From the NCBI RefSeq assembly GCF_024112395.2, contig NZ_CP078013.2, positions 5,084,001 to 5,148,000 on the forward strand: a stretch of 64,000 bases of DNA, given 5' to 3'. This stretch comes from Pseudomonas pergaminensis. GTDB lineage: Bacteria > Pseudomonadota > Gammaproteobacteria > Pseudomonadales > Pseudomonadaceae. This document shows, one piece after another, positions 26,115 to 40,310 of the stretch. The notes beneath the pieces were generated by a model. It saw nothing but the letters and a program-made list of their open reading frames with translations. It was not told the DNA's origin and did no database searches. Each line of letters opens with the position of its first letter. Position 1 is the stretch's first letter. Position numbers and translations under genes: made by a program.

Positions 26115-26161
26115 TGGTGTCCCAGGGCCGGTTCGAACGGCCAACCTTCCCCTTAGGAGGG
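26115..26161. repeat. attL: 47-bp copy of the tRNA-Arg 3' end
   Basis: These bases equal 40264-40310 exactly and diverge on both sides. They cover the CCA end, T arm and anticodon stem-loop but not the D arm, so this copy is not a functional tRNA. Confidence 0.93.
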
Positions 26162-26254
26162 TCATATCAAGCCCAGCAACCATTGAGGCGACCCAGCATT
26201 TATTGGCCTTAGCGTCCGGTTGTGTCCGTAAAAACGACCCGGTATATTTCTTTT

Positions 26255-26273
26255 TGCACCCACCATGCACCCA
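26255..26273 (+). promoter_or_regulatory. Candidate integrase arm sites, left
   Basis: TGCACCCA occurs at 26255 and again at 26266, eleven bases apart. The same pair with the same spacing occurs at 40197 and 40208. The second copy overlaps the integrase ribosome site. Confidence 0.65.
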
Positions 26274-26283
26274 TGGGAACAAA

Positions 26284-27495
26284 TTGAAAGAAAAGCTAAC
26301 AGCCAAACTGCTGGGATCACTGCAGGTCACTGGCAACGAATACGAAGTTCACGATACCACCGTCGGCGGTCTATTCGTGCGTGTTACTGCCGCGGGTGCA
26401 AAGTCTTACGTCGTCTCCTGGGCCCGTGGCCGGAAGAAGACTTTAGGCCGTGTCGGCATTCTCACGCTTGACCAAGCGCGCACTGAGGCCACTCAGTACC
26501 TCGCAGAAGCCCGAGCACATGGAGAGCCTCTGGCGGTCACTCAAGGCCGAAGGGGCGCCACCCTGCCCTCCTTGCGCGACTTCATTGATGACACCTATAT
26601 GCCGTGGTTCAAGGCTCATCACAAAGGCCACGAGAAGACCCAGCACACCCTCAGTAATAACTTCGACCCAATCATGGCCCAGCGCCTGGACGCGATCACC
26701 GGACGAGACCTGGAGCTGATCCGCACAGGATGGATGCAGGCCGGCAACAAGCCCTCCACGGTTAACCGGAAAATGGGCTCTATCAGCGGAGTATTCAGCC
26801 GGGCGGTCGAGTGGGATTACATCGACGAGCATCCTCTGGCCAAGCTGAAACAGCTCAAAGTCGACTCAAAGGGGGTGATTCGCTACCTGGCTGCTGACGA
26901 GACCAAGCGTCTGCGCGATGCCTTGGACGCTCGACAGGATGAAATGAGGGCCGAGCGCGAGAGTGCAAACGCCTGGCGGATGGACCGCCACAGAGAGCCG
27001 ATGCCAAGTCTCCTGGAATTGCCCTTCACCGATCACCTGAAGCCAATGGTGTTGGTATCGTTGAATACCGGCATGAGGCGTGGAGAGCTATTCGACCTGA
27101 GATGGTCAGCGGTGAACTTCGACACGAAGACAATCACAGTCGCCGGAGCCACCACCAAGACAAGCGATACGCGCCACATCCCGATGAACAAGGAGACTAT
27201 TGGTGTGCTGGAAGCCTGGAAGAAGCAGGGGAGCAAGTCGCCGTATGTCTTCCCAGGTCAGGGCGGCGGTCGCTTTGAGGACGTCAAAAGCGCCTGGCTC
27301 AAGTTGCTTGAGCGGGCGCAGATCGACGAATTCCGCTGGCACGATATGCGTCACGACTTTGCGTCACGCCTGGTAATGGCCGGCGTACCGCTCAACACGG
27401 TACGGGATCTGCTGGGGCACGCCGATATTAAAATGACGCTGCGCTACGCTCACCTAGCGCCAGGCACAAAGGCCGCGGCCGTGGAGCTCATTTAA
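26284..27495 (+). CDS. int: Tyrosine recombinase / phage integrase
   Basis: A TTG at 26284 behind GGGAAC is the best start (403 residues). The frame is open far upstream, but that part only shadows the MFS gene and attL. The protein has an arm-binding N-terminal domain (about residues 1-80, GLFVRVTAAGAKSY), a SAM-like core-binding domain (about 100-200) and the catalytic domain. Catalytic residues are visible as R265 (TGMRRGE), H353 and R356 (HDMRHDF), H379 (LLGHAD) and Y388 (LRYAHL). It should integrate the element into tRNA-Arg(CCT). The gene is intact. Confidence 0.92.
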   Translation: MKEKLTAKLLGSLQVTGNEYEVHDTTVGGLFVRVTAAGAKSYVVSWARGRKKTLGRVGILTLDQARTEATQYLAEARAHGEPLAVTQGRRGATLPSLRDFIDDTYMPWFKAHHKGHEKTQHTLSNNFDPIMAQRLDAITGRDLELIRTGWMQAGNKPSTVNRKMGSISGVFSRAVEWDYIDEHPLAKLKQLKVDSKGVIRYLAADETKRLRDALDARQDEMRAERESANAWRMDRHREPMPSLLELPFTDHLKPMVLVSLNTGMRRGELFDLRWSAVNFDTKTITVAGATTKTSDTRHIPMNKETIGVLEAWKKQGSKSPYVFPGQGGGRFEDVKSAWLKLLERAQIDEFRWHDMRHDFASRLVMAGVPLNTVRDLLGHADIKMTLRYAHLAPGTKAAAVELI

Positions 27496-27986
27496 AATGG
27501 GATACAGTCATCATCGCGTATGGGAACGATAGTGCTGCTTAATTTGTGTTTCTCAACGTGCGCAAGCAACGCATCCCATGCCATCCGCACAAATTCTAAA
27601 GAAATTGAAGCTCGATCAATTTCGTAGCAGCCAGCCTCATCGGTCACCCAGAAGAAGCTACTTGCTTTAACCGTCTCCCAAATCCGCAGTTCGTCATATG
27701 TGAGTGCTTGAGGCATATCAAAGCAAAGCTTGATGAAGCGCGTGGATTCGTCCGTCGACCATACCCTATCGATAACCTCTGCGAGAGAAGCGTCCATCTT
27801 GTCCGGCAAATCTATTTTTTGGTCGGCTATAGCGTTCGAAATTGCCCACTCAACGACGGCAGTTAAAGATCGCTTTTGAAGCCTGCCCATAATGTCGAGC
27901 GCGAATTTGATTTTCGGGTCAATTCTAATCCCCACGCTTACCGTAGTACTCGATTCGCCTGTCCGCTTACTCGTCTTAGTAGCCAT
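27492..27986 (-). CDS. Ribbon-helix-helix-like regulator (unrecognised)
   Basis: This 164-residue protein starts behind GGAAGGGT. Its N-terminal third (VSVGIRIDPKIKFALDIMGR then SLTAVVEWAISNAI) reads as a ribbon-helix-helix DNA-binding fold. The remainder is an acidic helical domain with VTDEAGCYEID. The gene converges with the integrase with a four-base overlap and diverges from the Xis-like gene across an intergenic region with two palindromes. A role as the element's regulator of int/xis is plausible but not shown. It could also be an antitoxin-like protein without a visible toxin. Confidence 0.6.
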   Translation of the reverse strand: MATKTSKRTGESSTTVSVGIRIDPKIKFALDIMGRLQKRSLTAVVEWAISNAIADQKIDLPDKMDASLAEVIDRVWSTDESTRFIKLCFDMPQALTYDELRIWETVKASSFFWVTDEAGCYEIDRASISLEFVRMAWDALLAHVEKHKLSSTIVPIRDDDCIPF

Positions 27987-28007
27987 ACCCTTCCATCTGC
28001 TCTGCTG

Positions 28008-28053
28008 AGGTCAGGCTTACTGACCTGATATCCACAGCTTGCGTGACACGCAA
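28008..28053. promoter_or_regulatory. Two palindromic operators in the divergent switch region
   Basis: AGGTCAG-GCTTA-CTGACCT (28008-28026) and TTGCGT-GAC-ACGCAA (28039-28053) lie between the RHH-like gene and the Xis-like gene. A further GCGTCGT/ACGACGC inverted repeat spans 28115-28141. The layout resembles a phage early-control region. Confidence 0.6.
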
Positions 28054-28172
28054 ACCGCTGTCAATCCGTGCGAGTACGAGTCTGTTTAGCATTTGCTTGC
28101 AATGAAAGCTTTATGCGTCGTAATCTAGCAACGCACGACGCCATTACTGGCTTCGTTTTTGGGGAGACAACC

Positions 28173-28376
28173 ATGGAACAAGCACGTCAACAAATGGCGC
28201 CGCTATCGGTGAGCGTCGAAGAATCTGCCCGAATTCTGGGTATCTCGCGCTCGGCCACCTACGAGCTAATCGCTCAAGGCGAAATCAAGACTTTCAAAAT
28301 CGGACGCCGGCGCCTGGCGCTGGCGTCCGAGCTGAAGGCTTTCATCGAGCGCGCAGCAAAGGTCGGGGCACGATGA
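28173..28376 (+). CDS. AlpA/excisionase-like helix-turn-helix protein
   Basis: The ATG at 28173 follows GGGGAGACAACC; the ORF extends 35 codons further without a site. The 67-residue product is a single MerR/Xis-type winged helix (SVEESARILGISRSATYELI then TFKIGRRRLALASELKAFIE). Such proteins act as excisionases or activate integrase in P4-like satellites and prophages. It is the first plus-strand gene after the divergent regulatory region. Confidence 0.8.
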   Translation: MEQARQQMAPLSVSVEESARILGISRSATYELIAQGEIKTFKIGRRRLALASELKAFIERAAKVGAR

Positions 28377-28430
28377 AGTGCGAAAAGAATGAGGAGTGGG
28401 GATTGCGCAGGGCTGCGCGAGAGATGCCAA

Positions 28431-28450
28431 GGCGGTGTTCGAGCACCGCC
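28431..28450 (+). other. Hairpin after the Xis-like gene
   Basis: GGCGGTG-TTCGAG-CACCGCC forms a perfect 7-bp stem between two small genes. It has no T-tract, so it may slow transcription or protect mRNA rather than terminate. Confidence 0.5.
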
Positions 28451-28492
28451 CTAGCGAAACACACTGGATAGCACCAACGTGAAGGTCAAACT

Positions 28493-28729
28493 ATGACACG
28501 TCATTCTTCAACTGAGCAAGACCGCAAGATGATGGAGGCCCTGCGACACGGGCCGGTATCAACCATCGAGGCCGCCAAGGACCTGGATATCGTCCAGCCA
28601 CCGAACACCATCCGACGCCTCAGGAAAAAGGGGCACGAAATCCGCACCTATTGGACGCACCAGTCTACTGAGCCGGGCCGCCCACCTCACCGCGTCGCCA
28701 AGTACATCCTCATGCGCGAAGCGTCGTAA
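28493..28729 (+). CDS. Phage-type helix-turn-helix protein (HTH_39-like)
   Basis: This 78-residue protein starts behind AAGGTCAAACT. It has a winged-helix core (RKMMEALRHGPVSTIEAAKD then NTIRRLRKKGHEIRTYW) like small prophage proteins of the HTH_39 type. These are thought to regulate phage genes, though their targets are mostly unknown. A perfect hairpin follows the stop codon. Confidence 0.7.
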   Translation: MTRHSSTEQDRKMMEALRHGPVSTIEAAKDLDIVQPPNTIRRLRKKGHEIRTYWTHQSTEPGRPPHRVAKYILMREAS

Positions 28730-28740
28730 TCCAAAGATAG

Positions 28741-28790: not shown

Positions 28791-29195
28791 ATGGCCAGAA
28801 AAAAATCCTACAAAGTCGATTTTGGCGGCGGCCGAGTTTTGGCGCTTCCTTATCGGCTCTTGGTCAGCGACGCCTTCGACAATCTGTCGACCAAGGCGGT
28901 AACGGTGCTGATCAAGTTGGCCAGGAACTACAACGGCCGTAATAACGGAGATCTGTCCTGCACCGCCTCAATGATGGCCAAGGGTAAGCCTATGGACGCG
29001 AAGACGCTTGCCTCAGCCCTCTCTGAGCTTATAGAGGCTGGGCTGATCGTGCGCACGAGAGAGAGCCGGAAAGGCGGCAGAGAACAGGGAATGGCCCGTT
29101 GCGCGCTGTATGCGGTCACGTGGGCAGCAATTGACGACTGCCCGGGAAAGGAGCTCGAGATTTCCCCTGGGCCACCGCGCTTCAAGTTCATCTGA
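28791..29195 (+). CDS. Winged-helix protein, possible replication initiator
   Basis: This 134-residue protein has a LALPYRLLVSDAFDNLSTKA start, then ALSELIEAGLIVRTRESRKG and a beta wing with CALYAVTWAAID. This resembles the winged-helix N-terminal domains of phage and plasmid replication proteins. It lacks a polymerase or helicase domain. Directly downstream are four TGGGAWTTTTTCC repeats that could be its binding sites. A replication role is an inference from fold-like pattern and context. A transcription regulator is the alternative. Confidence 0.5.
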   Translation: MARKKSYKVDFGGGRVLALPYRLLVSDAFDNLSTKAVTVLIKLARNYNGRNNGDLSCTASMMAKGKPMDAKTLASALSELIEAGLIVRTRESRKGGREQGMARCALYAVTWAAIDDCPGKELEISPGPPRFKFI

Positions 29196-29411: not shown

Positions 29412-29606
29412 ATGGGACCAACGACCTACCAGCAGGCCCGCTGCACTCATGGTTATGCAGGGAAATGTAAGCGCATCGGAGGCTTCACTTTCCTTGTTCT
29501 CGACTGGCGACCTTGGACGATGCTCGGAATGTGTAGACCGTGCGCCGAGGAAGTGAGGAAAGACCTTATCTACCTCACCGAGAAGGCACCAACGGCCAGC
29601 AAATGA
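29412..29606 (+). CDS. Small cysteine-containing protein, unknown
   Basis: The ATG at 29412 behind AGGGGTTATTAAG gives 64 residues. The frame is open to 29271, but that part runs through the repeat array. CTHG, a C-x-R segment and CRPC make a possible zinc-binding arrangement. No family is recognised. It lies in the early region of the element. Confidence 0.5.
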   Translation: MGPTTYQQARCTHGYAGKCKRIGGFTFLVLDWRPWTMLGMCRPCAEEVRKDLIYLTEKAPTASK

Positions 29607-29673: not shown

Positions 29674-30039
29674 CTACTCCAACACCACCGCGCGGTATTG
29701 CTGATCGCCGCCCAGGTCATCCGAGCCGAACAGAGCCTGGTTGACGGCCTTCTTACTATCCAACAGACGGTCATGCTCATCATGAGTGCCAATGTCCGCC
29801 GCAACCCACTCAGGGAGCTCCTTACGCCGCCGCATCTCGCTCAGGTGCGTCCACCACCGAGTAGCGTAACGCCGCTCTGCGAGAATGAGCTCAACCACTA
29901 AGGTTCGTTGCTTCTCGGTGAAGAGTGGCAGGTGTAAGACGCTAGAGTCTTCCGCCTCAGTGCGTGCCGAGCCCTCCCCTTCAAATTCGGACTTATCTTG
30001 GCCTTTCAGGGCGTTACTGATATTTTGGTAAAGTTGCAT
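29674..30039 (-). CDS. Hypothetical protein of the element
   Basis: The ATG at 30039 follows TTGAGAGACACGTC and gives 121 residues; the frame extends upstream without a site. The protein has an acidic middle (KGQDKSEFEGEGSARTEAED) and a helical C-terminal part with LILAERRYATRWWTHLSEMR. No domain is recognised. It is read convergently with the small gene at 29412. Confidence 0.5.
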   Translation of the reverse strand: MQLYQNISNALKGQDKSEFEGEGSARTEAEDSSVLHLPLFTEKQRTLVVELILAERRYATRWWTHLSEMRRRKELPEWVAADIGTHDEHDRLLDSKKAVNQALFGSDDLGGDQQYRAVVLE

Positions 30040-30184
30040 GACGTGTCTCTCAAGGTTGCGTCGTGTGATCGCCAGGCCGCTGTTGACGCAGCGGCTTGGC
30101 ACCTCTTTTGAGATGGCCCAAATCTGGACCATCGATTCAATCGGCTCCGACTTAAGCCGATCGACATACGGGATTTCCCCGCAT

Positions 30185-30415
30185 CTACTGCTTACCCTTC
30201 TCGCTGATCCAACCAGCCGCCCAGCTCAAGGGGTCTTTCGACTCCATCGGCTCAAGTGGCTTTCCTGCCCGTGCTGCCCTGATCCCCTCCTTTGCCGTCT
30301 CCTCGTGAATCCAGACCGTTGTCCGTTTGTAGCCTGCTGCCTTCTGCCGTTCGGCGAAGTCCCGCTGCCGATCCGCGCCGGTCCTCTTGCCAACCGCGCT
30401 GTTCAAATCTTCCAT
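30185..30415 (-). CDS. Small RHH-type regulator or antitoxin-like protein
   Basis: This 76-residue basic protein has RDFAERQKAAGYKRTTVWIH followed by a short helix, the pattern of small ribbon-helix-helix repressors. The C terminus is PLSWAAGWISEKGKQ. Two TGTTAGTGCT(A/G)ACA palindromes lie immediately upstream and are good candidates for autoregulation. No toxin partner is evident next to it; the HEPN-like gene at 30602 is divergent and 186 bp away. Confidence 0.6.
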   Translation of the reverse strand: MEDLNSAVGKRTGADRQRDFAERQKAAGYKRTTVWIHEETAKEGIRAARAGKPLEPMESKDPLSWAAGWISEKGKQ

Positions 30416-30425
30416 TCCCTTCCCC

Positions 30426-30472
30426 TGTTAGTGCTGACACAAAGAGATAATGTCACCCTGTTAGTGCTAACA
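30426..30472. promoter_or_regulatory. Tandem palindromic operators
   Basis: TGTTAGTGCTGACA (30426-30439) and TGTTAGTGCTAACA (30459-30472) are 33 bp apart, about three helical turns. They sit 11 bp upstream of the RHH-like gene's start and within its likely promoter. Confidence 0.75.
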
Positions 30473-30601
30473 CAAGGGATAGGTGCAAAAAATAATTGCA
30501 GGTCCCCGCAGCATAGAAGCTCAGACGATCCAAAAAACATAAGCTTGATCTTATAGCGGCCTAAAGCCACTATTTCGTGATTTATACACAGGGAACTCAA
30601 A

Positions 30602-31264
30602 GTGACAGCACAGTTTGAGAAGCGCTTTGCAGAGCTAGATAAACAGTTGATTCAGCTGCTTAACGCCACCACGATGAGAGGCGACCCAAGAAGGGAGGGC
30701 CAGACAGAGTACCTAGCCCCGGATTTGATTCTGAATTGGTCAGTAAAGGTTAAGGCACTGCTTGAAAGGGTTTGCGGCAAAGAATCTAGTTACCTGCAAA
30801 GGTTTACCGAAGCTGATGAGAAGCAAATGTTCGATGTCGGCGTTGCCCGCTTTGAACGAATGCGAGCTGTTTTTCTGGCAGCAAAAGAGGATTTTGAGGG
30901 GGGGTATCTCAATTCGCTTCGAAATCTGGTGCAAGCTGACGTCTTCACAAGCGAGCTAGAACAGGCGGGTCAGCTGCTTGATGCTGGATATATTTCGGCA
31001 GCCGCTGTGATTGCCGGGGTGGTGCTTGAAACCACGATCCGCAACCTCTGTACCGATCGTGGTATCGCCCATGGGTCACTAGATAGAATGAACGCCGATC
31101 TGACAAAGGCGAGCGCTTACAACTCAATCCAGCAGAAACGTATTACCGCGATGGCTGGCATTCGCAATAGCGCTGCGCACGGCAAGACAGACGAATTTAC
31201 CTCAGGAGACGTAAAGGGGATGATTGATGACGTCGAGCGATTCTTAGCGACGATACTGCACTAA
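30602..31264 (+). CDS. HEPN-like domain protein (candidate defence RNase)
   Basis: The GTG at 30602 follows AGGGAACTCAAA and gives 220 residues. The N-terminal 110 residues are helical with no recognised domain. The C-terminal region (about 115-218) reads as a HEPN fold: AGQLLDAGYISAAAVIAGVV, then R188-x4-H193 in IRNSAAHGK and a final helix VKGMIDDVERFLATIL. R-x4-H is the catalytic motif of HEPN ribonucleases in toxins and abortive-infection systems. No nucleotidyltransferase partner is seen. DUF4145-like proteins share this layout. An RNase role is inference. Confidence 0.6.
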   Translation: MTAQFEKRFAELDKQLIQLLNATTMRGDPRREGQTEYLAPDLILNWSVKVKALLERVCGKESSYLQRFTEADEKQMFDVGVARFERMRAVFLAAKEDFEGGYLNSLRNLVQADVFTSELEQAGQLLDAGYISAAAVIAGVVLETTIRNLCTDRGIAHGSLDRMNADLTKASAYNSIQQKRITAMAGIRNSAAHGKTDEFTSGDVKGMIDDVERFLATILH

Positions 31265-31399
31265 ATTCAATTTCTAGGTGCGCTCAAATCTGAGCACTTT
31301 CGCCTTGAAACTCAACAGAGCAGTTTTTTGAAGGGCATCAACTTTGGCTAATACAATGAGTACAAGCCGCCCACAGCACCAATTCAGACGGACACTTAA

Positions 31400-32056
31400 A
31401 TGCGGCACTTAGATAAAATAAATATAACTCTTGCACTTCTTTTATCTTTTTTGATTGGCTCGTTATTTGGGCTCTCGGTCGAACTGGGATGGGGACTACC
31501 ACTTGGAACCTCTCTTACATTGGTAATAGCCACACTGGGTTTCGGGGTAACCTTATATCAATCGCATTCAACAAGACGGCACAACAGACTTTTGGTAAGA
31601 CCACATTTAATTCTTAGCCTACCCTTCTCAAGCATTGAAATAGATGGCTTCTACTCATTTTCAGTAAAAGTGAAAAACTCTGGACTGGGACCTGCTTTAA
31701 TTGAAAAATTTTCAATATCTATTGGCAAGGACGGCGATATACCGTCCGGTTCTTTGCTTGAAACCATTCAAAAACATGCCCGCGAGCAATTTAATGCCAA
31801 GGGGAACACACGCTGCGGATCGAACTACCTTCGAGAAGGTAATGCTATAGATAAAGGGGAGGAAAAGACGATACTCGAAATCAATTTCCGCAAGGAAAAA
31901 ATTATATTCAGCGAGGCTCGAGAACTAGCAAAACTTTACTCATCCACTATCGCTATAAAAATCCACTACCACTGTCATTACGGAAACAAATTCAAACTAA
32001 ATAAACTAGCATCGCAAAATAAAAATTTAAAACCTGATCTAACAGACATCACCTAA
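31400..32056 (+). CDS. Two-helix membrane protein, unknown
   Basis: This 218-residue protein has two hydrophobic segments near its N terminus (ITLALLLSFLIGSLFGLSVE and LGTSLTLVIATLGFGVTLY) separated by a very short turn. A basic SHSTRRHNRL boundary follows, then a beta-rich soluble domain (LILSLPFSSIEIDGFYSFSV). Base composition is clearly more AT-rich than the core genome. It has no recognised family. A TM-TM plus beta-domain layout next to HEPN and TIR genes suggests a defence-related membrane protein, but this rests on context only. Confidence 0.55.
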   Translation: MRHLDKINITLALLLSFLIGSLFGLSVELGWGLPLGTSLTLVIATLGFGVTLYQSHSTRRHNRLLVRPHLILSLPFSSIEIDGFYSFSVKVKNSGLGPALIEKFSISIGKDGDIPSGSLLETIQKHAREQFNAKGNTRCGSNYLREGNAIDKGEEKTILEINFRKEKIIFSEARELAKLYSSTIAIKIHYHCHYGNKFKLNKLASQNKNLKPDLTDIT

Positions 32057-32360
32057 ATCGATATAAAAACCGAATGAGACACTTGGATCTTGTAGTATAC
32101 CATAACTTAATCCAGGGAATTTAAGGCAGTCTTCGGGAATGGTAATGAGGTGCCGAAATGTGCCGCAAATTCATCTCACAGAGACGTTGTAGTCTCACTA
32201 GACTTATGTTGATCTCATCAGCAACCATTGACGCCCGATGCTAAAAGCTCGAAAGCAAGCCGGCCGGGCGTCAGCTATGCTCCTCTCGCCACTTATCCCT
32301 GAGACGCACGCCCTAGCGTGCCAACGATCACCACAGAGCTAAAGCTCAAGGAAGCGCTGG
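32057..32360. other. 304-bp gap before the TIR gene
   Basis: No convincing gene, terminator or promoter motif was identified here. The segment is locally AT-rich at its left end and could hold the TIR gene's promoter or a small RNA. Confidence 0.4.
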
Positions 32361-33272
32361 ATGTACAACCTTTTGATGACAGCTGGTGAAGATGACTGGA
32401 ATAGCCCTACGTGGTCACTATCTACGGGTAGATACCTCGAGCACACGGTTCAGATATTAAGGAATAGGTTCGAAATTCTTTCCCCCGATACGGTCCAGCA
32501 GCTCAAACAAATGCCAACCCTATTTGCATATGAGGACTTCCGCGATCAGCCTGCCACGGTAGGACGCATTACTGAAATACAACAGCTCCAACATGAGCTT
32601 CGAATCACTCTCGCCATAGATCCTGCAGTGGCTCCGATACCACAAGCCGTATTAAGGACTCTTTATCAGGACCTTGATATCAATACTAGGAACTTGGAGC
32701 ACTGCCGCACCCATTGGGCGATAAAAGATATTGATCTGGTTGGCGTTTTGGTAAGGGCCAACCTTATAAATCTTCCCCTACTACCACCTCAGCCTAGGCC
32801 TCCCAAAGTTTTCATATCCTACTCGTGGGACTCACCGGAACACCGGCAGTGGGTTGCATTGCTGGCAGGAACACTGCGCTCCAACGGAATCGATGCGACG
32901 TTAGATCAATGGCACGTTAGAGGAGGCGAAGATCTAGCGGGTTTTATGGAAAGGTCCATCCGCGAAGCAGACCGCGTGCTGGTAATTTGCACTGAAGCAT
33001 ATGTGGAAAGGGCTATTGGTAGGCAAGGAGGGGTTGGGTACGAGCATACAATGGTAACCGGCGAATTGATGAGAAACGTAGGAACCGCTAAATTCATTCC
33101 AGTAGTTCGCCAGTCCAGTCGGCCGATCACCCTGCCAACAGAACTGAACACTCGCCGATATTTCGACCTTGGCCCAGGTGCGGAATACCCGACACAGTTG
33201 CAAGCCCTCATTAGAGACTTGCATAACGTGCAGACCCCAATTCCACCACTGGGGCCAAATCCCTTTCAATGA
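32361..33272 (+). CDS. TIR/SEFIR-domain protein
   Basis: This 303-residue protein starts behind AAGGAAGCGCTGG. Residues 1-145 form an unrecognised helical/beta region. A SEFIR/TIR domain begins at about 148 with KVFISYSWDSPEHRQWV, continues through DATLDQWHVRGGEDLAGFME and ADRVLVICTEAYVERA, and has acidic EHTMVTGELM late in the fold. Bacterial TIR proteins commonly degrade NAD or make signal nucleotides in anti-phage defence. Whether this one is catalytic cannot be told. It appears as a single gene, not a Thoeris or CBASS arrangement. Confidence 0.8.
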   Translation: MYNLLMTAGEDDWNSPTWSLSTGRYLEHTVQILRNRFEILSPDTVQQLKQMPTLFAYEDFRDQPATVGRITEIQQLQHELRITLAIDPAVAPIPQAVLRTLYQDLDINTRNLEHCRTHWAIKDIDLVGVLVRANLINLPLLPPQPRPPKVFISYSWDSPEHRQWVALLAGTLRSNGIDATLDQWHVRGGEDLAGFMERSIREADRVLVICTEAYVERAIGRQGGVGYEHTMVTGELMRNVGTAKFIPVVRQSSRPITLPTELNTRRYFDLGPGAEYPTQLQALIRDLHNVQTPIPPLGPNPFQ

Positions 33273-33540
33273 GGCAGACCAAATGAGCCGAATCAGACCG
33301 TTTGGTCTGCTTGGCTCCTGCTCCTCCTGACAGCAGGCTGGAGCAGGTGTTGCGATGACAGCAACACCTTCGCTCAACCGTGCTCCTTGCTCACCCTTCA
33401 TCCATTCAGAGCGAGGTGGGATTCTCTCACCCCGCCTGGGCTGCCAACTGCCGAGGATTTCTCTGCGGTTCGCAAATCCCACCGATCAGGGGTATTTCCC
33501 CATTGGGGGAAGATGTGAGCAAACTTGCTCATATCCAATA

Positions 33541-33576: not shown

Positions 33577-33791
33577 CAAACCTCACATACCTAAATGGTA
33601 GGTCAGCCCTCCCCTCTCCATCCTCAATCTGAGGACGGACTGAGCCGAAAACCCGGCTATGTATCACTTTGCCTACCCTCGACTTAATGCAACAAAAACA
33701 CCCTCTTCAATCCCGCCAAAACTAACTGTTTCAGTCCCGTTTAATCCGGTTATGTGTATCACCTAGAGTACACCTAAAAAGCACTGGATAA

Positions 33792-33853: not shown

Positions 33854-34030
33854 ATGAACACAGCTAAGCCCGCCCGAGGACGCCAGCACAAACCAACTCG
33901 CTCTGAAGTTGCTGCCGCCTGGGACCGCCTTCGCGAAGCCGCGGCAGACGGAAGCGTTCAAGCATCCGCGCTGCTGATAGCGCTCGCTGAAAACAAACCG
34001 GTCATCGCCATGGAATCGCCGGCCGCATGA
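33854..34030 (+). CDS. Small basic protein, first gene of phage-type operon
   Basis: A 58-residue frame runs from the ATG at 33854 to TGA at 34028-34030. It is followed by ATGA overlap with the DUF5681 gene. The product starts basic (NTAKPARGRQHKPTRSEVAA) and ends with a helical ALLIALAENKPVIAME segment. The four-base overlap and codon use match the downstream genes, which supports it as real. No family is recognised. Confidence 0.6.
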   Translation: MNTAKPARGRQHKPTRSEVAAAWDRLREAAADGSVQASALLIALAENKPVIAMESPAA

Positions 34031-34443
34031 CTGATCGCGATAAAGCCGGCAAATGGAAGCCGGGGCAATCGGGTAATCCCGGTGGTCGTTCTGGCCAAAC
34101 GCAGGAGCTGCGCGCCCGACTCGCGGAAGGTGCAGACGCCGTGACAAAGAAGGTTCTGACAGCGGCCAAGAAGGGCGATATGCAGGCTTGCCGGCTGATC
34201 CTTGAACGACTGGTACCGCCAATCAAGCCAACTGCCGAGACAGTGTGCTTCGACCTCGACGATACCGACCTACCCAGCGCAGCCAAATCAATCCTCCGCG
34301 CAGTTGCCGCCGGCGAGCTACCGCCCGACCAGGGCAAAGCATTGATCGAAGGACTAGGCGCTGTAGCCCGGGTGATCGAAGTTGCCGAGCTACAGAAGGC
34401 CGTCGAAGAACTCCGCGAACAGATGGAGGGAATGCGGCAATGA
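34027..34443 (+). CDS. DUF5681-type phage protein
   Basis: This 138-residue protein carries the DUF5681 hallmark near its start (KWKPGQSGNPGGRSG). It continues with a helical body (KKVLTAAKKGDMQACRLILE) and a coiled-coil-like C terminus (VAELQKAVEELREQMEGM). Such proteins are found in prophages, often beside small terminase genes; their function is not established. Here no terminase follows. The start overlaps the preceding gene and the stop overlaps the next by four bases. Confidence 0.75.
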   Translation: MTDRDKAGKWKPGQSGNPGGRSGQTQELRARLAEGADAVTKKVLTAAKKGDMQACRLILERLVPPIKPTAETVCFDLDDTDLPSAAKSILRAVAAGELPPDQGKALIEGLGAVARVIEVAELQKAVEELREQMEGMRQ

Positions 34444-34871
34444 GCGTTAAGTGGATGCGGGCCGAGCTCAAACGAATTGCAGAAAAGATCGGCGCCGACG
34501 ACGAAGAGACAGTTCTCGTTATGTTGACGGTGGTGGACTGCAGGGTTAACGCGGTTGAGGAGGAGATGGACTACCCCAAGACAGTGGGCCATTCGTTCAA
34601 CTATCCCGTCTTGGGCGTACAGATGGTGATGCACTTCCCACTGTGCACCATGAACAGCTATGACGCGGCCAATCTGGCAGAGGCGTTCATTCTCCACGTC
34701 CGCGCAATTGAACGCCTCCGCCGCCCCGCTCCGGTAGGTGTGATGGATATGCGGCCATTCCCAAGTTCTGGTGCCTGGATCTTCCCGCCGCTGGCTGATG
34801 GGCAAAACATCAAAGAGCACGTCGCAGAACAGTACCAACTGATCATCGAGGCCCGCCATGAACATCCGTAG
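34440..34871 (+). CDS. Hypothetical protein in phage-type operon
   Basis: The ATG at 34440 overlaps the DUF5681 stop. This 143-residue protein has acidic and hydrophobic stretches (IGADDEETVLVMLTVVDCRV, YDAANLAEAFILHVRAIERL) and no signal or membrane segment. No family is recognised. Tight coupling on both sides (14-base overlap with the next gene) shows it belongs to the operon. Confidence 0.6.
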   Translation: MSVKWMRAELKRIAEKIGADDEETVLVMLTVVDCRVNAVEEEMDYPKTVGHSFNYPVLGVQMVMHFPLCTMNSYDAANLAEAFILHVRAIERLRRPAPVGVMDMRPFPSSGAWIFPPLADGQNIKEHVAEQYQLIIEARHEHP

Positions 34872-35076
34872 CCAGGTGGCCAAGCTGCGTCAGCAATCCG
34901 GGCTCACTCAATTCAATCGTGACGTGCGAGAGATCAGCGCCCTTATGGACGAGTTGCACGCCGCAGCAACCGGTGGCGGCCCCCAAGAGAGCGTGTCCCT
35001 ATTCGAGATCCTGAGCGAAGCCTCAGACCAACAAACGGCCGAACCACGGCCAGACAATCAAAAGGTAACCCAATGA
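34858..35076 (+). CDS. Small hypothetical protein in phage-type operon
   Basis: This 72-residue protein (MNIRSQVAKLRQQSGLTQF start, FEILSEASDQQTAEPRPDN near the end) overlaps both neighbours. It is mostly helical then disordered. No family is recognised. Confidence 0.55.
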   Translation: MNIRSQVAKLRQQSGLTQFNRDVREISALMDELHAAATGGGPQESVSLFEILSEASDQQTAEPRPDNQKVTQ

Positions 35077-35906
35077 AAATCGGCAAACGATCCGTCCTCA
35101 AAGTTGGCTTGGCCAACCTCCACTACTCCGAATACGAGCACTCCCAGGTAGAGGCAAGAACCTTCAATATTCAGCGCCCCGATGGCACCAAAGGAACCTG
35201 GCAGGCCGGTGGCTTGCTGAAGTCCGTTCGCCATTTGCAGGGCTTGTCGCTGGAGGCGTTCAAGGACCTCGGAGAAGAAATCCTCTCGATTCGAGGGAAC
35301 AAGGACCTCAACGCCGCTGCCATTGAGCGCAAGGGTAAGGAGCAGATTGATGGAATCATTCCCGCCCTGATGCCGGCGATGGAGAAGGCAGCAAAAGATA
35401 TGCTCACGTTGGCCCAAACGGTGGCCAGCGGCTTTGCCGCGGTCACGCCGCGGGCTAGCTCGGACGTTGTTGGTTTCCTGGCCGATCAGGAGCTACGAGC
35501 CATCGTGCGTAGCCTCAAGCCGGAAGAGCGCCAGCGACTAGTCGCTGAGGCGCGCGCAGGCAGTCACCCCGACGTTGTAGAGGCCGTGCTCAGGGCAAAC
35601 CCAATGCTCTCCGGGCTATCGCCAGAGGCGGCTGACAGCCTGTCGCGAGCAGGCATTGCCGCGTCGCGCGCCGAAGACATCGAAGGGCTCAAGCAGATGC
35701 TAGCGATCTACGATGACGTGCTGGCCACCGCCTCCAATGCTGGTGTCGCACTGAGCGGCATGGTTGCCAATTCGAATGGGTACACCGGCCGGTTTGAGAA
35801 GTGGAGATCGGGCTGCGAAGGCTCCGAAGCGCTTCGCGAATGGCTAGCAAAAATGCCCTCTCGCACCTCCGCAAAAGCGTCTTCTGATCAATCCGAAGCG
35901 GCCTAA
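35073..35906 (+). CDS. Hypothetical protein in phage-type operon
   Basis: This 277-residue protein overlaps the previous stop by four bases. It has an N-terminal beta-like stretch (YSEYEHSQVEARTFNIQRPD) and a helical middle (LMPAMEKAAKDMLTLAQTVA). A C-terminal part rich in Ala and Ser follows (LRAIVRSLKPEERQRLVAEA). It lacks signal or membrane segments. It does not match a phage structural family that I recognise. Confidence 0.6.
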   Translation: MKIGKRSVLKVGLANLHYSEYEHSQVEARTFNIQRPDGTKGTWQAGGLLKSVRHLQGLSLEAFKDLGEEILSIRGNKDLNAAAIERKGKEQIDGIIPALMPAMEKAAKDMLTLAQTVASGFAAVTPRASSDVVGFLADQELRAIVRSLKPEERQRLVAEARAGSHPDVVEAVLRANPMLSGLSPEAADSLSRAGIAASRAEDIEGLKQMLAIYDDVLATASNAGVALSGMVANSNGYTGRFEKWRSGCEGSEALREWLAKMPSRTSAKASSDQSEAA

Positions 35907-35975: not shown

Positions 35976-36320
35976 ATGACCTTTCAAGAGCGCTTTACCG
36001 AGGCGTGCAAAACGCAGAAATTCAAACCATACGAACTGATCCAAGGGCCGGACGCCGGCTACACGGTGTGGGAGGTCCAGCACGTCAGTGGTGGCCAACA
36101 GGTGACAGTCGACGGCCCCTTCTTCACCGAGGAAGAGGCCAGGGTTTCGGCCGACCTGCTGAGGGGGACATTCCGCGGTGCCCGGGCCAGCGAGGCAATC
36201 TACAACCGGGTGTGGAACTACGACCCGCGCCAGGAGCAACTGACCATCGACCAGGCGCATATGTCACGCGCTGTGCTCGCCATTCGCCTTGGGCTTCCAG
36301 CCCCTTCGACTAATCCATAG
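35976..36320 (+). CDS. Hypothetical protein upstream of gpI-like gene
   Basis: The ATG at 35976 (MTFQERFTEACKTQK) gives 114 residues; the frame opens at 35934 without a better start. The middle shows a small beta-rich pattern (TVWEVQHVSGGQQVTVDGPF) and the end a helix (HMSRAVLAIRLGLP). No family is recognised. It lies nine bases before the gpI-like start. Confidence 0.5.
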   Translation: MTFQERFTEACKTQKFKPYELIQGPDAGYTVWEVQHVSGGQQVTVDGPFFTEEEARVSADLLRGTFRGARASEAIYNRVWNYDPRQEQLTIDQAHMSRAVLAIRLGLPAPSTNP

Positions 36321-36328: not shown

Positions 36329-36925
36329 ATGGCCGCTACAGCAATCGATTACAACCCACGTACCACAATCAAGCTCTATGGCCAGCTCCGGCGGTTCGGA
36401 AAGGTCTATCACCTAGCCGTTCGCTCGCCTGCCGAAGCAATCAAAGCCTTGTGTGTACAGATCCCAGGCCTTGAGCGTTTTATCTCTAACGCCAAGTCGC
36501 GCGGCTTGGAGTTTGCAGTGTTTCGCGGCAAGAAAAATATTGGCGCAGAGGAGCTGGGATACCAGGGCACCGGCGACATCATAATCTCGCCTGTTATCGT
36601 TGGTAGTAAGCGTGCTGGAGTGTTGCAAACAGTCGTCGGGGCAATTCTTATTGCCGCGTCATTCTTCACGTTCTGGGCACCTCCAGTATCGGCAGCGCTA
36701 TTCGCATCAGGCGTGGGTATGGTCGCCGGTGGAGTTATCCAAATGCTCAGCCCCCAGGCCGGCGGTCTCAAGACAAGCGCTGCGCCAGAAAATCAACCTG
36801 GATACGCGTTCGGTTCAGCCCGAAACACCACCGCCTCAGGAAATCCCGTGCCGCTATGCATTGGCCACCGTCGTTGGGGTGGAGCAATCATCAGCGCTGC
36901 AATTTACGCTGAAGATAAAGTTTAA
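36329..36925 (+). CDS. Lambda gpI-like phage tail assembly protein
   Basis: This 198-residue protein starts behind AGGAGGCCTC. It matches the lambda tail assembly protein I family over its full length. The N-terminal domain (TTIKLYGQLRRFGKVYHLAV) is followed by a Gly/Ala-rich hydrophobic segment (VGAILIAASFFTFWAPPVSA). The conserved C-terminal SGNPVPLCIGHRRWGGAIIS ends the protein. In siphophages I acts in tail-tip assembly just before the host-specificity gene J. Here J and the other tail genes are missing and reversed accessory genes follow, so this is an orphan tail gene. Confidence 0.88.
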   Translation: MAATAIDYNPRTTIKLYGQLRRFGKVYHLAVRSPAEAIKALCVQIPGLERFISNAKSRGLEFAVFRGKKNIGAEELGYQGTGDIIISPVIVGSKRAGVLQTVVGAILIAASFFTFWAPPVSAALFASGVGMVAGGVIQMLSPQAGGLKTSAAPENQPGYAFGSARNTTASGNPVPLCIGHRRWGGAIISAAIYAEDKV

Positions 36926-36958: not shown

Positions 36959-38143
36959 TCATTCTTCACGAGACTTTGAAAAACCAAATATTTTCTCTTG
37001 CTGATTTACAAAGTAATCATGAGTGAATGAAATGACATCCACGTAGTCCTCATAAATTATATGCAGTTGATTGCTGTAATGCTCCGAGCGTGGAAAAACT
37101 CGCCAATGGACTGGCTCTCCCGGAAATATTTCAACCTCACCATCGCTACGCAAAACTATCATGCGGTCGTCCATTTCTAGGACTGTACCAAATGGAGCAG
37201 TTCCCGTTGAAACCACATCACCATCGAATGGGAGATCCTGACCGCCTAAATATTCAAATTTTGAATTAGATTTTTTTTCTGCTTTATAAGATGAGTTGTA
37301 ATTACTGACAGATATCGCTCCGCCAGATATTTTGTACATCTTCTCTCTGCTACCCCATACGAAATCGGGCTCAGCAACACTGCTTAATCCGAAGATTTCT
37401 CGCTGATCAATTATTCGATCAAACACACGAATTTTCTTCTTAGTTCCTGGATCTTTCTCCTCTCTAAAGCTGGCCATAAATGCGTCTTCAGAGGTCCACC
37501 CCATAACGCTTTGGAACGCCCAGTCGCAAGCACTGCAGGCTTGGGTGGCGAGCTGTCTAGCATTTCCCAGCGAATCAAAACTGCTTCGTGGAACGCTGAA
37601 ATCAAAGAGCCCGTCCGTTCCCGCCGCAGTGGCCAGCGCGCTAAACCGCTCGGATGCTTTCACCTGAAATATGCTTGCGTCATGATGTTTATTTAACCGA
37701 CTCTCTCTTGAGCGAGTAGAGGCAGTTCGCGGAAATGAATAGAGGCCTTCATTACCACCTGCAAAGAACTGGTTATAGTAAACTTCTGTATCTGTAGGGA
37801 GAAAGTTAAACGGACTAGTCTGTGTCGACCAATACTCGCGAGACTGCATATTTTCCGCATGCAAATTAGCCTCAGACAGCCTTGAGAGCTGGAGCTTTAT
37901 AGGATGTTCAACGTGGGGGTCGCGCAATATTCTACGAACCTTAGTATTATAGAACAAATCACTATCTGAAAAGGCGACTCTAATCGCCGTCTGAATTTCC
38001 AAATGTTGATTTGCTATATCATCTATAAACTCCTCCCAGGCAACCTTATGAAGTTCTCCCCCATCACCCAAAAGGATAAGTTCGCCTGAGTAGATTTGAG
38101 AATCCCAATAACTTCCGGGAATACTAAGTTTCACAGAGCGCAT
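36959..38143 (-). CDS. Unrecognised 394-residue protein, second gene of an accessory module
   Basis: It starts behind AGGGGCAAAAA and overlaps the upstream gene's end by 13 bases. The sequence is beta-rich with repeated Gly/Asp turns (IYSGELILLGDGGELHKVAW, APFGTVLEMDDRMIVLRSDG). It also contains two close cysteines (QACSACDWAFQ) and a run of aromatic residues near the C terminus (HIIYEDYVDVISFTHDYFVN). It has no signal peptide or membrane segment. Composition is AT-rich compared with the core. It may fold as a propeller-like or multi-beta-domain protein. I recognise no family. Co-translation with the 128-residue gene implies a joint function. Confidence 0.6.
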   Translation of the reverse strand: MRSVKLSIPGSYWDSQIYSGELILLGDGGELHKVAWEEFIDDIANQHLEIQTAIRVAFSDSDLFYNTKVRRILRDPHVEHPIKLQLSRLSEANLHAENMQSREYWSTQTSPFNFLPTDTEVYYNQFFAGGNEGLYSFPRTASTRSRESRLNKHHDASIFQVKASERFSALATAAGTDGLFDFSVPRSSFDSLGNARQLATQACSACDWAFQSVMGWTSEDAFMASFREEKDPGTKKKIRVFDRIIDQREIFGLSSVAEPDFVWGSREKMYKISGGAISVSNYNSSYKAEKKSNSKFEYLGGQDLPFDGDVVSTGTAPFGTVLEMDDRMIVLRSDGEVEIFPGEPVHWRVFPRSEHYSNQLHIIYEDYVDVISFTHDYFVNQQEKIFGFSKSREE

Positions 38144-38517
38144 TTTTTGCCCCTATGTATCTTGGCCATCTGCGCTTTCGAGATAAACCCGAATACCTTC
38201 CAGCTAGTCAAAATTACTTCCGTAGGCCTATCCCATGGAGCTATCCAGTGCGCGACTGGGTAACCATGCCAGTTTTCATGAGAGTCACCCACAAACTTTG
38301 CAACATGGAGAGGGCAGCCAATGGGCGGTGGTGCTATCCCAATGGGCTGCACAGAGCCGCCACCAACATTAAGGCCCCAATAACAGTCATTTCCGAACCA
38401 GTCGGCTGAGGCGGCAAGATCAAAACATCCTTTTTCCTCAGGAAGTGAGATCGTCCATTGGGACTTAATTCCTGCAAAAGCTCTGCTTCGATGCTGCGGA
38501 TTTGGCGTGTAGATCAA
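38131..38517 (-). CDS. Unrecognised 128-residue protein, first gene of an accessory module
   Basis: A TTG start at 38517 follows GGGAGAGGGCC. The protein is rich in Trp, Gly and His (SADWFGNDCYWGLNVGGG, VGDSHENWHGYPVAHWI) with a basic C terminus (AKIHRGKKCAL). It contains no membrane helix or signal. The stop lies inside the start of the following gene. I know of no family for it. The pair occupies the place where lambda-like elements keep tail-fibre genes or accessory (moron) genes. Confidence 0.6.
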   Translation of the reverse strand: MIYTPNPQHRSRAFAGIKSQWTISLPEEKGCFDLAASADWFGNDCYWGLNVGGGSVQPIGIAPPPIGCPLHVAKFVGDSHENWHGYPVAHWIAPWDRPTEVILTSWKVFGFISKAQMAKIHRGKKCAL

Positions 38518-38713
38518 AGGCCCTCTCCCTGAGCGCGTACCTAGTTCCTAATAGTATCGAAGACTCCTATGCGCCTTTCTCGATGTCAAGCTCTCTAGGG
38601 TATGCCTATCCAGATACAGGCTTATTTTGCCTTTCTCGGGCTTTTCGCTTGATAAGTAACACCCAAAATGCAACATTCTTAGTAGAACGCCCTAACTGAT
38701 ACAGGCACCCATC

Positions 38714-39325
38714 ATGTTCATCCGCGCATACCTCCGAGCATCCACCGACGAACAAGACGCCGGCCGCGCCCGGGCGTCGCTCGAGCAGTTCGCCAGCGAC
38801 CACAACAAGGTCATAGCAAGCGTTTACCAGGAGAACGCCAGTGGCGCCACCGCCGATCGGCCTGAGCTGTTGCGCCTGCTCAAGGATGCCCGCAAGAGTG
38901 ACGTGTTGCTGGTGGAGTCGATAGACCGACTCTCCCGCTTGCCGGTAGAGGATTGGCAAAAGCTGAAGGCTGCTATCGACTCCAAGGGTTTGCGCATCGT
39001 CGCGCTCGACCTTCCGACCAGCCACCAGGGAATGCAGGACACCAAGGGCGACGAGTTCACCGGTCGGATGCTGGGAGCAATCAATTCCATGCTGGTAGAG
39101 ATGATGGCGGCGATTGCCCGAAAGGACTACGAACAGCGCCGCGAACGACAGGCTCAAGGTATCGAGAAGGCTAAAGCGGCTGGCAAGTACCAGGGCAGGC
39201 CTGTTGATGCCGACTTGCATAGGAGGGTCAAGGAACTGCTCGATGCCGGGCTAGGCATCCGAGCCACCGCTAGGCACGCCGATTGCTCGACCACTACCGT
39301 TCTCCGTATACGGAACTCGACTTAA
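38714..39325 (+). CDS. Serine recombinase, resolvase/invertase family
   Basis: This 203-residue protein has the catalytic serine (S10) in RAYLRASTDEQD and ESIDRLSRLPVEDWQ and GEFTGRMLGAINSML-like conserved segments. A C-terminal helix-turn-helix (GLGIRATARHADCSTTTVLR) binds DNA. Such enzymes resolve dimers or invert segments. A GATACAGGC repeat occurs at 38613 and 38698 just upstream, possibly part of its site. No inverted segment is evident. It is a second recombinase in an element already carrying a tyrosine integrase. Confidence 0.88.
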   Translation: MFIRAYLRASTDEQDAGRARASLEQFASDHNKVIASVYQENASGATADRPELLRLLKDARKSDVLLVESIDRLSRLPVEDWQKLKAAIDSKGLRIVALDLPTSHQGMQDTKGDEFTGRMLGAINSMLVEMMAAIARKDYEQRRERQAQGIEKAKAAGKYQGRPVDADLHRRVKELLDAGLGIRATARHADCSTTTVLRIRNST

Positions 39326-40216
39326 TCACCAGTTGTTGAATGGAATGTCTGAGCACGTAACGATGCTCTTGTCATATCCATACTGCTTAACTAAGAGCTC
39401 AGCAGCTTTCGCGGCACGAGCCTGATTTGGATTGGGCCCCACGATCAGTTTTTTCAGCACATCAGGCTTGGCATTGAGCAGATCAATTGAAATGTACGGT
39501 ATGACGTAGGATGGCCCGGTACGAAACCGCACTTGGTGATCGGGCTTGTTCGAAATAATTCGCCACTCCGCCTCTTCATGGAAGCCCTCGTGCTTGAACA
39601 GCGGTGCAAGCTCCAACAATAGATTGCAAATCGTATTGAGCACTCGATCTGCTTCAGGTTTTAGATCCCCATTAAGGCGGTCCTTGATCGCGAACATACA
39701 GTCTAGTTTTTCTTCGGTAGGAAGCGAAAAGAACTCCTCCACCGAGTGCGGGACCGACGGAAAGCAATCCCTACCTGCAGAAATTATGGTCGCCACTGCC
39801 CCAGCCTGATCCTCATGCTTATAAAGGCACTTCTCCAATCGAATGCCTCTCTCCTCGCAGTACTCTGCTACCAGGCGTTGATCAAAGCCGATGCAGTAAC
39901 CACTTCCACCGGGGCAATACCCCCGCCACTGGCTGAGCAAATCAGGCTTTTCACTGAAAGAAGAAACGTAGAGATCCTGCTCGTCCATTTTGTTCAAATG
40001 GCCATGGAGCATGAAACCGAATGTCTCCCAATAGTCATCTTCATAGGAATGGCTTGCCATTGCTCTGGCGAACGACAGGGCATGAACGAACTCTGTGGGA
40101 TCGTTTAGGTAATGAGTATTGGTTGCCCAAATTGACTTGCTGTCGAGGACTCCAAGCAATCCTTGCTGGCTGGTGTAGTGGTAAAGAATGCTCAATTGCA
40201 CCCATCCTGCACCCAT
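39326..40216 (-). CDS. DUF2971 protein
   Basis: The start is uncertain. The ATG at 40216 is used; GTG or TTG codons up to 30 bases downstream are possible, and this start overlaps the integrase-arm repeat. The 296-residue product shows DUF2971 features: LYHYTSQQGLLGVLDSKSIW, TNTHYLNDPTEFVHAL, SFSEKPDLLSQWRGYCPGGS and EEAEWRII. DUF2971 proteins are frequent in mobile elements and defence islands; a fold related to ADP-ribosyltransferases has been suggested. Function is unknown. It is the last gene before the intact tRNA-Arg. Confidence 0.75.
   Translation of the reverse strand: MGAGWVQLSILYHYTSQQGLLGVLDSKSIWATNTHYLNDPTEFVHALSFARAMASHSYEDDYWETFGFMLHGHLNKMDEQDLYVSSFSEKPDLLSQWRGYCPGGSGYCIGFDQRLVAEYCEERGIRLEKCLYKHEDQAGAVATIISAGRDCFPSVPHSVEEFFSLPTEEKLDCMFAIKDRLNGDLKPEADRVLNTICNLLLELAPLFKHEGFHEEAEWRIISNKPDHQVRFRTGPSYVIPYISIDLLNAKPDVLKKLIVGPNPNQARAAKAAELLVKQYGYDKSIVTCSDIPFNNW
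40197..40215 (+). promoter_or_regulatory. Candidate integrase arm sites, right
   Basis: TGCACCCA at 40197 and at 40208, with the same 11-bp spacing and orientation as the pair at 26255/26266. Confidence 0.65.
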
Positions 40217-40263
40217 GAACACAACCGCCTATCCATGGAGTGTGCGCAAGTCGTTGAATTTAA

Positions 40264-40310
40264 TGGTGTCCCAGGGCCGGTTCGAACGGCCAACCTTCCC
40301 CTTAGGAGGG
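40264..40310. repeat. attR: 47-bp repeat inside tRNA-Arg(CCT)
   Basis: It is the right boundary of the element and forms the 3' part of the intact tRNA. Confidence 0.93.

Follow-up and report, generated by a model that had tools for sequence, protein, structure and literature searches.

An integrative satellite-like element in tRNA-Arg(CCT) of Pseudomonas pergaminensis with an orphan tail assembly gene I in its conserved operon

Introduction

Tail takeover by phage satellites has been described in the PLEs of Vibrio, which build chimeric tails by replacing the tape measure and baseplate hub of the helper with their own, and which a 2026 report presents as the first case of chimeric satellite tails (PMC12987554). 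Within Pseudomonas, the closest described system is phiAH14b (KU708005), which occupies 16.8 kb in Pseudomonas sp. ANT_H14. It was co-induced by mitomycin C and was published as helper-dependent, being packaged into phiAH14a capsids, probably as trimers; that publication also reports homologues of tail assembly gene I (tail-I), with 71-74% identity between satellite and helper and with an additional copy in the helper, as well as particles which are tail-less "for an unknown reason" even though the helper has tail genes (PMC4936722). Also relevant are the Gram-negative phage-inducible chromosomal islands (PICIs), given as about 10-15 kb in PMC11364771, and the capsid-forming PICIs (cf-PICIs), some of which carry putative tape-measure genes (PMC12987554, Extended Data Fig. 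10 legend). Here, we describe an integrative element located at positions 26115 to 40310 of a 64,000-nucleotide stretch of the Pseudomonas pergaminensis genome (contig NZ_CP078013.2, positions 5,084,001 to 5,148,000; the whole stretch is termed the window), whose conserved operon ends in a full-length tail-I gene of the lambda gpI family (36329..36925, plus strand) preceded by a small partner gene, g17 (35976..36320, plus strand; 114 amino acids). The satellite identity of this element is well supported, and as a whole explanation we favor, at a probability of about 0.5, a satellite which travels in helper-borne particles and substitutes its own tail-I for that of the helper.

Comparison with described satellites

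The element resembles phiAH14b in being small and integrative and in carrying g17 (55% identity) directly before tail-I (70%), yet these are the only 2 of its 22 open reading frames (ORFs) that match phiAH14b at E<=1e-3. phiAH14b encodes its own primase and helicase, lacks g12 to g16 and the serine recombinase of the window type, and showed no detectable integrase or excisionase (Xis) similarity to the window element. Because only g17 and tail-I are shared, the pair sits on at least two unrelated integration/replication backbones; a third g17/tail-I arrangement, accompanied by its own capsid gene, is found at locus L148. The phiAH14b backbone itself is recurrent, its primase and helicase being present in 9 of the 15 tail-I loci without a downstream J gene which are described below (L011, L014, L026, L112, L124, L126, L129, L142, and L144, the first three being examined as L053, L054, and L052). 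At L112 (genome G030), 11 phiAH14b proteins were found with 100% identity. Also in this genome is L111 (G030:C8, around 198785-199360), where an orphan tail-I gene stands close to genes of recombination-like appearance; it probably represents the additional tail-I copy that PMC4936722 reports for the helper phiAH14a. In L052 (G242), a phiAH14b-type satellite adjoining tRNA-Phe(GAA), g17 is followed by tail-I twice in tandem. In addition, three loci (L086, L091, and L094, in G373, G036, and G055) combine a window-type integrase (75-87%) with an Xis-like gene and a helicase-like gene in the absence of tail-I, the primase and helicase of G036 being 52% and 56% like those of phiAH14b; the occurrence of this integrase on other element types indicates that integration modules are exchanged between them.

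Three relatives of the window element (G009, G360, and G391) share with it the integrase (52-59%), the Xis-like protein, a tRNA attachment site, and tail-I, and possess the gene list that we take to define a cf-PICI, namely, capsid, protease, portal, small and large terminase subunits (TerS and TerL), and connectors. Unlike these relatives, the window copy has no head or terminase genes in Pfam, PHROG, and tblastn searches, the last with the relative's genes, and it also differs in lacking tape-measure genes. PLE11 is likewise a satellite that brings along tail-assembly gene(s) of its own and acts against phages; compared by description, it provides a tape measure, an assembly chaperone, and a baseplate hub for contractile tails, whereas the window element encodes a siphophage-type tail-tip protein I. 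No PHROG for a tape measure or tail chaperone of the PLE kind was matched by the ORFs scanned, a search which did not include the PLE genes themselves. With Gram-negative PICIs and P4-like satellites, the window element has in common its size, an integrase at a tRNA, an AlpA/Xis-like (HTH_17) regulator, and defense hotspots, but it has no primase family and no recognized TerS, the only candidate for the latter being a DUF5681 protein, g13. General Pfam and PHROG scans, which involved no dedicated search for psu or sid, gave no primase or capsid-size family.

The initial annotation of this DNA had placed the element in no described family. This holds insofar as phage and plasmid collections contain nothing that matches the window lineage to a substantial extent (only about 1% of the query), although its modules are common to the cf-PICI-like relatives and phiAH14b. 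A satellite module of tail-I and g17 was not described in the literature searched, from which bioRxiv and most subscription papers fell outside the scope, nor in the available passages of PMC12846349 and PMC12595487.

Tail-I and its partner g17

The same annotation had listed no capsid, terminase, or lysis genes, and no capsid, portal, large-terminase, or lysis family was matched by the 20 of 22 window ORFs scanned against Pfam and PHROGs; its implication that virion genes are lacking altogether was wrong, as the full-length tail-I at the end of the conserved operon had been overlooked. The product of this gene matches phrog_32 (4.3e-69) and has relatives of known structure in 25vf_9 (5.1e-49) and lambda gpI itself (8iyk_I, 8.8e-21), while its match to PF06805 falls below the Pfam cut-off. 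In PDB 9e7m, the chains called tail tip assembly protein I comprise 90 residues and correspond to the C-terminal part alone, a portion that may be the one retained in the tail. The PHROG profile of tail fiber J (phrog_31) also matches a segment of tail-I (36509-36916; 8.5e-6), J and tail-I thus having a related segment in common.

Matches to tail-I were present in 119 of 298 genomes, and 70 loci, a nonrandom sample comprising 30 fetched first and 40 taken by rank among the matches listed, were inspected. J lies downstream of tail-I in 55 of them and is absent from 15. At about 350 bp upstream of tail-I, g17 precedes 12 of the 15 J-less copies and none of the 55 J-bearing ones (Fisher 4e-11, a value which ignores relatedness among loci that are not independent), so that in the loci examined g17 stands only beside J-less tail-I. 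Its distribution is correspondingly narrow: a single match, phiAH14b, was obtained among 50,697 phage records, and at least 150 relatives exist in the protein database, the named ones among the 120 matches listed being all from Pseudomonas. No convincing Pfam or PHROG match was found for g17. One orphan tail-I without g17, L125 (G196:C1, 855000-870000), is situated between a tyrosine integrase and terminase-looking genes near tRNA-Met(CAT).

Tail-I within the family of related elements

A search of 398 genomes of the genus with the integrase (E<=1e-60) was positive in 33, own genome included. These 33 regions and G349, in which the operon is present without this integrase, constitute the 34 regions compared; for G349 the scan covered 28 kb without defined limits, the G047 region breaks off after 2 kb, and the ORFs of the relatives derive from a length-based gene caller, some being uncertain or spurious. 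Tail-I is encoded in 23 of the 34 regions, and g17 lies beside it in 18 of the 23. By tblastn at E<=1e-5, none of the 34 regions matched lambda-type J, K, L, M, or tape-measure genes, the queries being taken from two same-genus prophages, L051 and L055 (G132 and G260), with names that were assigned by reading ORF size and order and that agree with the annotated order in phiAH14a.

Full prophage modules were thus looked for within the same boundaries and were absent, a result which bears on the possibility that the element is a deletion remnant of a lambda-like prophage which retained its integrase and tail-I. The small size of the element and the prophage kinship of its tail-I in the tree (see below) would accord with such an origin. 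Against it stand the absence of every other lambda-type tail gene sought, the conservation of gene order and boundaries across many genomes, purifying selection, and the restriction of g16 and of a non-coding site to this element type; no further structural or lysis genes and no decay were seen. A prophage remnant was therefore rejected and is, in our estimate, very improbable and largely refuted, and the term "decayed" in the initial annotation is likewise not borne out, as the order of the backbone genes is conserved in many genomes and these genes are under purifying selection.

Gene content preceding tail-I varies between relatives. The window type is represented by a g12-g16 module with g17 present or absent, whereas G048, G268, and G117 have an HK97-type capsid gene in this position and G289 has an HK97-type capsid gene together with a protease-like match. 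The G048 capsid corresponds to phrog_10 (1.4e-49), and those of G268, G117, and G289 are 37-47% identical to it. In G009, G360, and G391, a capsid gene is followed by tail-I and then by protease, portal, HNH, TerS, TerL, and two connector genes (PHROG E-values of 2.7e-27 to 1.5e-122 for the G009 head genes; the G360 and G391 sets were identified by tblastn). G186 possesses the head set and G220 a capsid gene, both without tail-I, and G358 carries a gene resembling a prophage ORF which we take to encode a neck protein. The four relatives with the head set (G009, G360, G391, and G186) are 10.8-11.7 kb long, and the full-set elements are integrated in tRNA-Arg(CCG) or tRNA-Thr; judged by their gene content, these relatives look like cf-PICIs. 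The embedding of tail-I in a complete head set, with the capsid gene on one side and the protease gene on the other, points to a role in virion assembly.

This linkage also bears on a further alternative, in which the element is a mobile defense island, perhaps moved by an unrelated phage, and tail-I is a passenger without a virion role; the Pseudomonas I55 islands, moved by a jumbo phage according to PMC12595487, provide a parallel. Orphan tail-I genes do occur in surroundings that resemble the early part of a prophage (L111) and next to a different integrase (L125), G190 has no tail-I, and no lambda-like helper was found in the genome of the window copy. The linkage that tail-I shows in relatives to capsid, protease, portal, and terminase genes, and in satellites with different integrases to g17, speaks against a passenger, and we regard this alternative as improbable.

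Selection on and exchange of tail-I

Median ratios of nonsynonymous to synonymous substitutions (dN/dS) were 0.02-0.16 in eight of nine genes tested and 0.26 in g14; tail-I gave about 0.08 in its four usable pairs. Synonymous divergence (dS) was compared among the eight elements which have tail-I and a g16 at >=97%. Between G000 and its seven close elements, the DUF5681 gene (dS 0.06-0.30) and g16 (0.19-0.30) are little diverged, as is g17 in six of the comparisons (0.22-0.49), whereas tail-I reaches 1.29-2.23, near saturation. The dS of tail-I exceeds that of g16 in 28 of 28 pairs of the eight elements, the excess being smaller where G000 is not involved. Elements of the phiAH14b type behave likewise: tail-I identity lies below helicase identity in all 22 pairs whose helicases are at least 90% identical (medians of 62% and 95%, respectively), and g17 identity in this type is also variable (45-95%).

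In a tail-I tree of 100 rows, the J-less label needs nine changes, at least six of which are forced by well-supported branches; two divergent tail-I copies of G117 have very long branches and remained unplaced. The clade of the window copy's tail-I is sister to prophage L003 (support 98/96). A comparison of 59 phage rows with 39 J-less rows, from which the two divergent G117 rows were dropped, identified 55 of 214 columns as at least 95% conserved in both groups alike. Residues particular to satellites, as a poison subunit might show, were also looked for; three columns differ clearly between the groups, one being the phage-conserved glutamate E49. Intact sequence, low dN/dS, and shared conserved columns give tail-I the appearance of a functional gene, and one which seems to have been repeatedly replaced by other alleles.

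Rapid exchange could also be the signature of an arms race, and a serious rival explanation, although we consider it unlikely, is that tail-I, together with g17, is an anti-phage weapon in which surplus mismatched tail-I poisons tail-tip assembly in the manner of Tab/Tai. Blocking of tail assembly is an established defense in prophages, PICIs, and P4-like satellites, as set out in PMC10884400 and PMC11364771, and the phiAH14a/phiAH14b particles are tail-less despite the tail genes of the helper (PMC4936722). Defense genes in the cargo slots of the element and the frequent change of E49 in J-less copies can be read in the same direction. A poison is harder to reconcile with 55 near-invariant columns in both groups, with the place of tail-I in the backbone rather than in the cargo slots, and with its position within the head operon of three capsid-forming relatives, which need helper tails. 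Unlike tail-I, moreover, Tab and the Rta protein of the PLEs are small dedicated proteins of 83 and 80 residues, respectively.

Proposed role of tail-I in helper-derived particles

The lambda protein gpI belongs to the tail-tip initiator together with J, K, and L. We propose that the element, integrated in tRNA-Arg(CCT), would travel in particles that a lambda-like siphophage helper assembles and that its conserved operon, from g12 to tail-I, is a morphogenesis module. Satellite tail-I would replace helper tail-I at the tail-tip initiator, acting with the J, K, and L of the helper, and a part of the tails made would thereby be satellite-directed chimeras. The product of g17 may render this exchange one-sided, either by hampering helper tail-I or by acting as a dedicated chaperone, and g13 (DUF5681) may steer packaging. 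For satellites which need helper tails and encode one tail-tip protein, the simplest use of that protein is in their own particles; by analogy with the tape measure and hub replacement of PLE11, tail-I could be swapped into the initiator, with g17 favoring the swap. What we infer here is the tail mechanism of tail-I and g17, and with it that a helper mobilizes the window copy, that tails come to contain the tail-I of this copy, and what g13, g16, and g17 do. Substitution appears somewhat likelier than blocking because of the head-operon position of tail-I, its backbone status, and its intact sequence.

Several observations weigh against substitution. Searches of the genome of the window copy recovered no further tail-I and, apart from the satellite tail-I itself, nothing that matches J, so that any lambda-like helper would need to be an incoming phage; a single portal-like match is present in that genome, at 1.81 Mb. 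G190 has kept g12-g16 and has neither g17 nor tail-I, neither of which is hence strictly essential, and g17 is absent from 5 of the 23 regions with tail-I (G009, G360, G391, G160, and G268). The structure predicted for g17 reaches a pLDDT of just 60, which is low, and resembles no PDB fold at E<=0.001. The glutamate E49 is shared by 52 of the 59 phage rows, compared with only 16 of the 39 J-less rows, and 1 of 36 phiAH14b-type pairs, L053-L054, reverses the pattern of exchange (helicase 85%, tail-I 97%). Finally, mass spectrometry of the phiAH14 particles gave only helper proteins (PMC4936722). Tail-less particles as such fit either failed substitution or deliberate blocking, while tail-less particles with helper proteins only fit a blocker as well or better.

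A broader version of the substitution reading, which we hold tentatively and consider rather less probable than not, is that Pseudomonas satellites on at least two unrelated backbones, together with L148, share a module for reprogramming the tail tip that consists of an exchangeable tail-I and a g17 which disables or excludes the helper version, the cf-PICI-like relatives using tail-I without g17. Helper tails would be turned into satellite tails or, where alleles mismatch, left unfinished, and the latter outcome would account for the lack of tails in the phiAH14 particles published in 2016.

Boundaries and integration site

The element is flanked by a left (26115..26161) and a right (40264..40310) attachment repeat which are identical over all 47 bp and which form the sole direct repeat of at least 20 bp within 25500-41000 (seed 14); its length from repeat to repeat is 14,149 bp. 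The right copy constitutes the 3' 47 nucleotides of tRNA-Arg(CCT) (40264..40340, minus strand), which remains intact and on which Rfam agrees. The core repeat in the initial annotation is therefore exact, as is its account of an intact integrase (PF00589, 1.6e-30) and an intact Xis-like HTH_17 protein (6.4e-12). G+C content is 0.61 directly left of the element, 0.44-0.59 within it, and 0.53-0.59 in the right flank; as the right flank is low as well, composition provides weak evidence for the boundaries.

The regions of G053 and G114 stop short of a target tRNA; 30 of the 33 integrase regions (window included) contain one and could be scored for the repeat. In all 30, a stretch at the tRNA recurs exactly, in direct orientation, at 138-186 bp upstream of the integrase gene; this repeat measures 44-51 bp in 26 regions and 19-32 bp in four, and the target is tRNA-Arg(CCT) in 25, tRNA-Arg(CCG) in 4, and tRNA-Thr(CGT) in 1. 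When the flanks were joined (600 bp), a continuous match across the junction was found in 3 of 57 genomes, own genome included (G017, 84%; G031, 80%; G004, 77%), which indicates that the integration site also exists empty. Recurrent boundaries and empty sites, both of which the initial annotation had proposed as checks, are thus in place, and its description of an integrative, satellite-like element is supported by them together with the lack of capsid, portal, large-terminase, and lysis families.

Backbone, cargo slots, and defense genes

Coverage by other elements splits the window copy cleanly into backbone parts and cargo slots. Backbone I (26.0-30.4 kb) begins with the tyrosine integrase (26284..27495, plus strand; 403 amino acids from a TTG start chosen by reading) and g2 (27492..27986, minus strand), a small conserved protein which is regulator-like by reading, has no family match in Pfam or PHROGs, and falls in a loose single-linkage cluster spanning 30 regions. 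The Xis/AlpA-like HTH_17 protein follows (28068..28376, plus strand; alternative ATG at 28173); its AlpA match is only 0.094, and one weak small-terminase match (0.0095) is taken as reflecting the shared helix-turn-helix. Of the two winged-helix proteins, wh4 (28493..28729, plus strand) belongs to HTH_39 (1e-24), and wh5 (28791..29195, plus strand), whose position is occupied by a different gene in some relatives, is the gene previously called replication-like; its product is short and shows weak similarity to initiators, with phrog_270 as its best match (3.6e-5). The small conserved g6 (29412..29606, plus strand), g7 (29674..30132, minus strand; phrog_38072, 1.5e-5), and g8 (30185..30415, minus strand) complete this part.

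Backbone II (33.4-36.9 kb) comprises a non-coding block, g12 (33854..34030), which opens the presumed operon, g13 (34027..34443), g14 (34440..34871), g15 (34858..35076), g16 (35073..35906; 277 amino acids), g17, and tail-I, all on the plus strand. From g12 to tail-I the genes overlap or nearly touch, in an operon-like manner, except for 70 bp before g17. Distant relatives of g13 (37-39% identity over part of the protein, annotated as hypothetical) lie two genes upstream of TerL in both phages opened out of 24 records matched, a location which hints at a packaging role. The element-specific marker g16 has 52 relatives in the protein database and none in 50,697 phage records; 15 of 398 genomes carry it with 60-100% identity, two more giving weak and broken matches, and it is present in 14 named loci, all Pseudomonas and nine of them overlapping the genome set, with tail-I in the fetched flank of 13. 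A single-sequence model of its fold was useless (pLDDT 37).

Cargo slot 2, a serine recombinase, and cargo slot 3 follow backbone II in that order. The serine recombinase (38714..39325, plus strand; PF00239, 2.1e-25) is covered in 17-18 other elements and is a conserved part of the element, which corrects the initial annotation. Its protein is 89-96% identical between elements at a dS of 0.77-1.54 (16 comparisons), as expected of an old, strongly constrained gene.

Cargo slot 1 (30435..33434) encodes a DUF4145/HEPN-like protein (30602-31264), a membrane protein by reading (31400-32056), and bSEFIR (32361-33272; PADLOC 6.2e-66), the last confirming that candidate defense genes are carried, as originally suggested. 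Its DNA is covered by 0-2 other elements through 33234 and by four at the right edge. The two proteins of slot 2 (36959..38517, minus strand) have a 97% match only in G285 among the 34 regions, and slot 3 (39326..40222, minus strand) encodes a DUF2971 protein (PADLOC PDC-S31, 3.1e-8). A defense scan of 5 of the 109 cargo ORFs listed for the relatives gave matches for four, in G338 (PDC-S06), G309 (PDC-S33), G190 (PDC-S31), and G220 (SIR2), and none for the ORF of G321. The family accordingly consists of a fixed backbone with swappable, partly defense-like cargo.

Conserved non-coding block upstream of g12

The block preceding g12 (about 33690-33853) has a core at 33754..33790 (plus strand) which was aligned in 16 elements, and it is covered in more elements than several neighboring genes. 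With up to two mismatches, the core occurs once each in 10 of 298 genomes, nine of which carry g16, the tenth being G086. Two exact stretches were found in viral contigs: L159, a fragment of the same element type, and L158, in which only g12 (65%) and the serine recombinase were present among the genes sought. Identity as a helper late promoter was rejected, the core being absent (up to seven mismatches) from 157 prophage loci, most of which do not cover the late promoter. A structured RNA was likewise rejected (z of -2.3 in one fold, with 4 of 200 shuffles as good); the Rfam scan returned the tRNA only, and a sigma-70 promoter scan found none.

Implications

Satellites are already known for redirecting heads and packaging. 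If the proposed role of tail-I is correct, the elements described here would have arrived at chimeric satellite tails in a second way, independently of the PLEs with their tape measure, and the tail-less helper-satellite system phiAH14 would become testable. The recurrence across several Pseudomonas satellite types of a tail-tip gene which has g17 as its partner and turns over faster than the genes around it would then make tail takeover a general satellite strategy.

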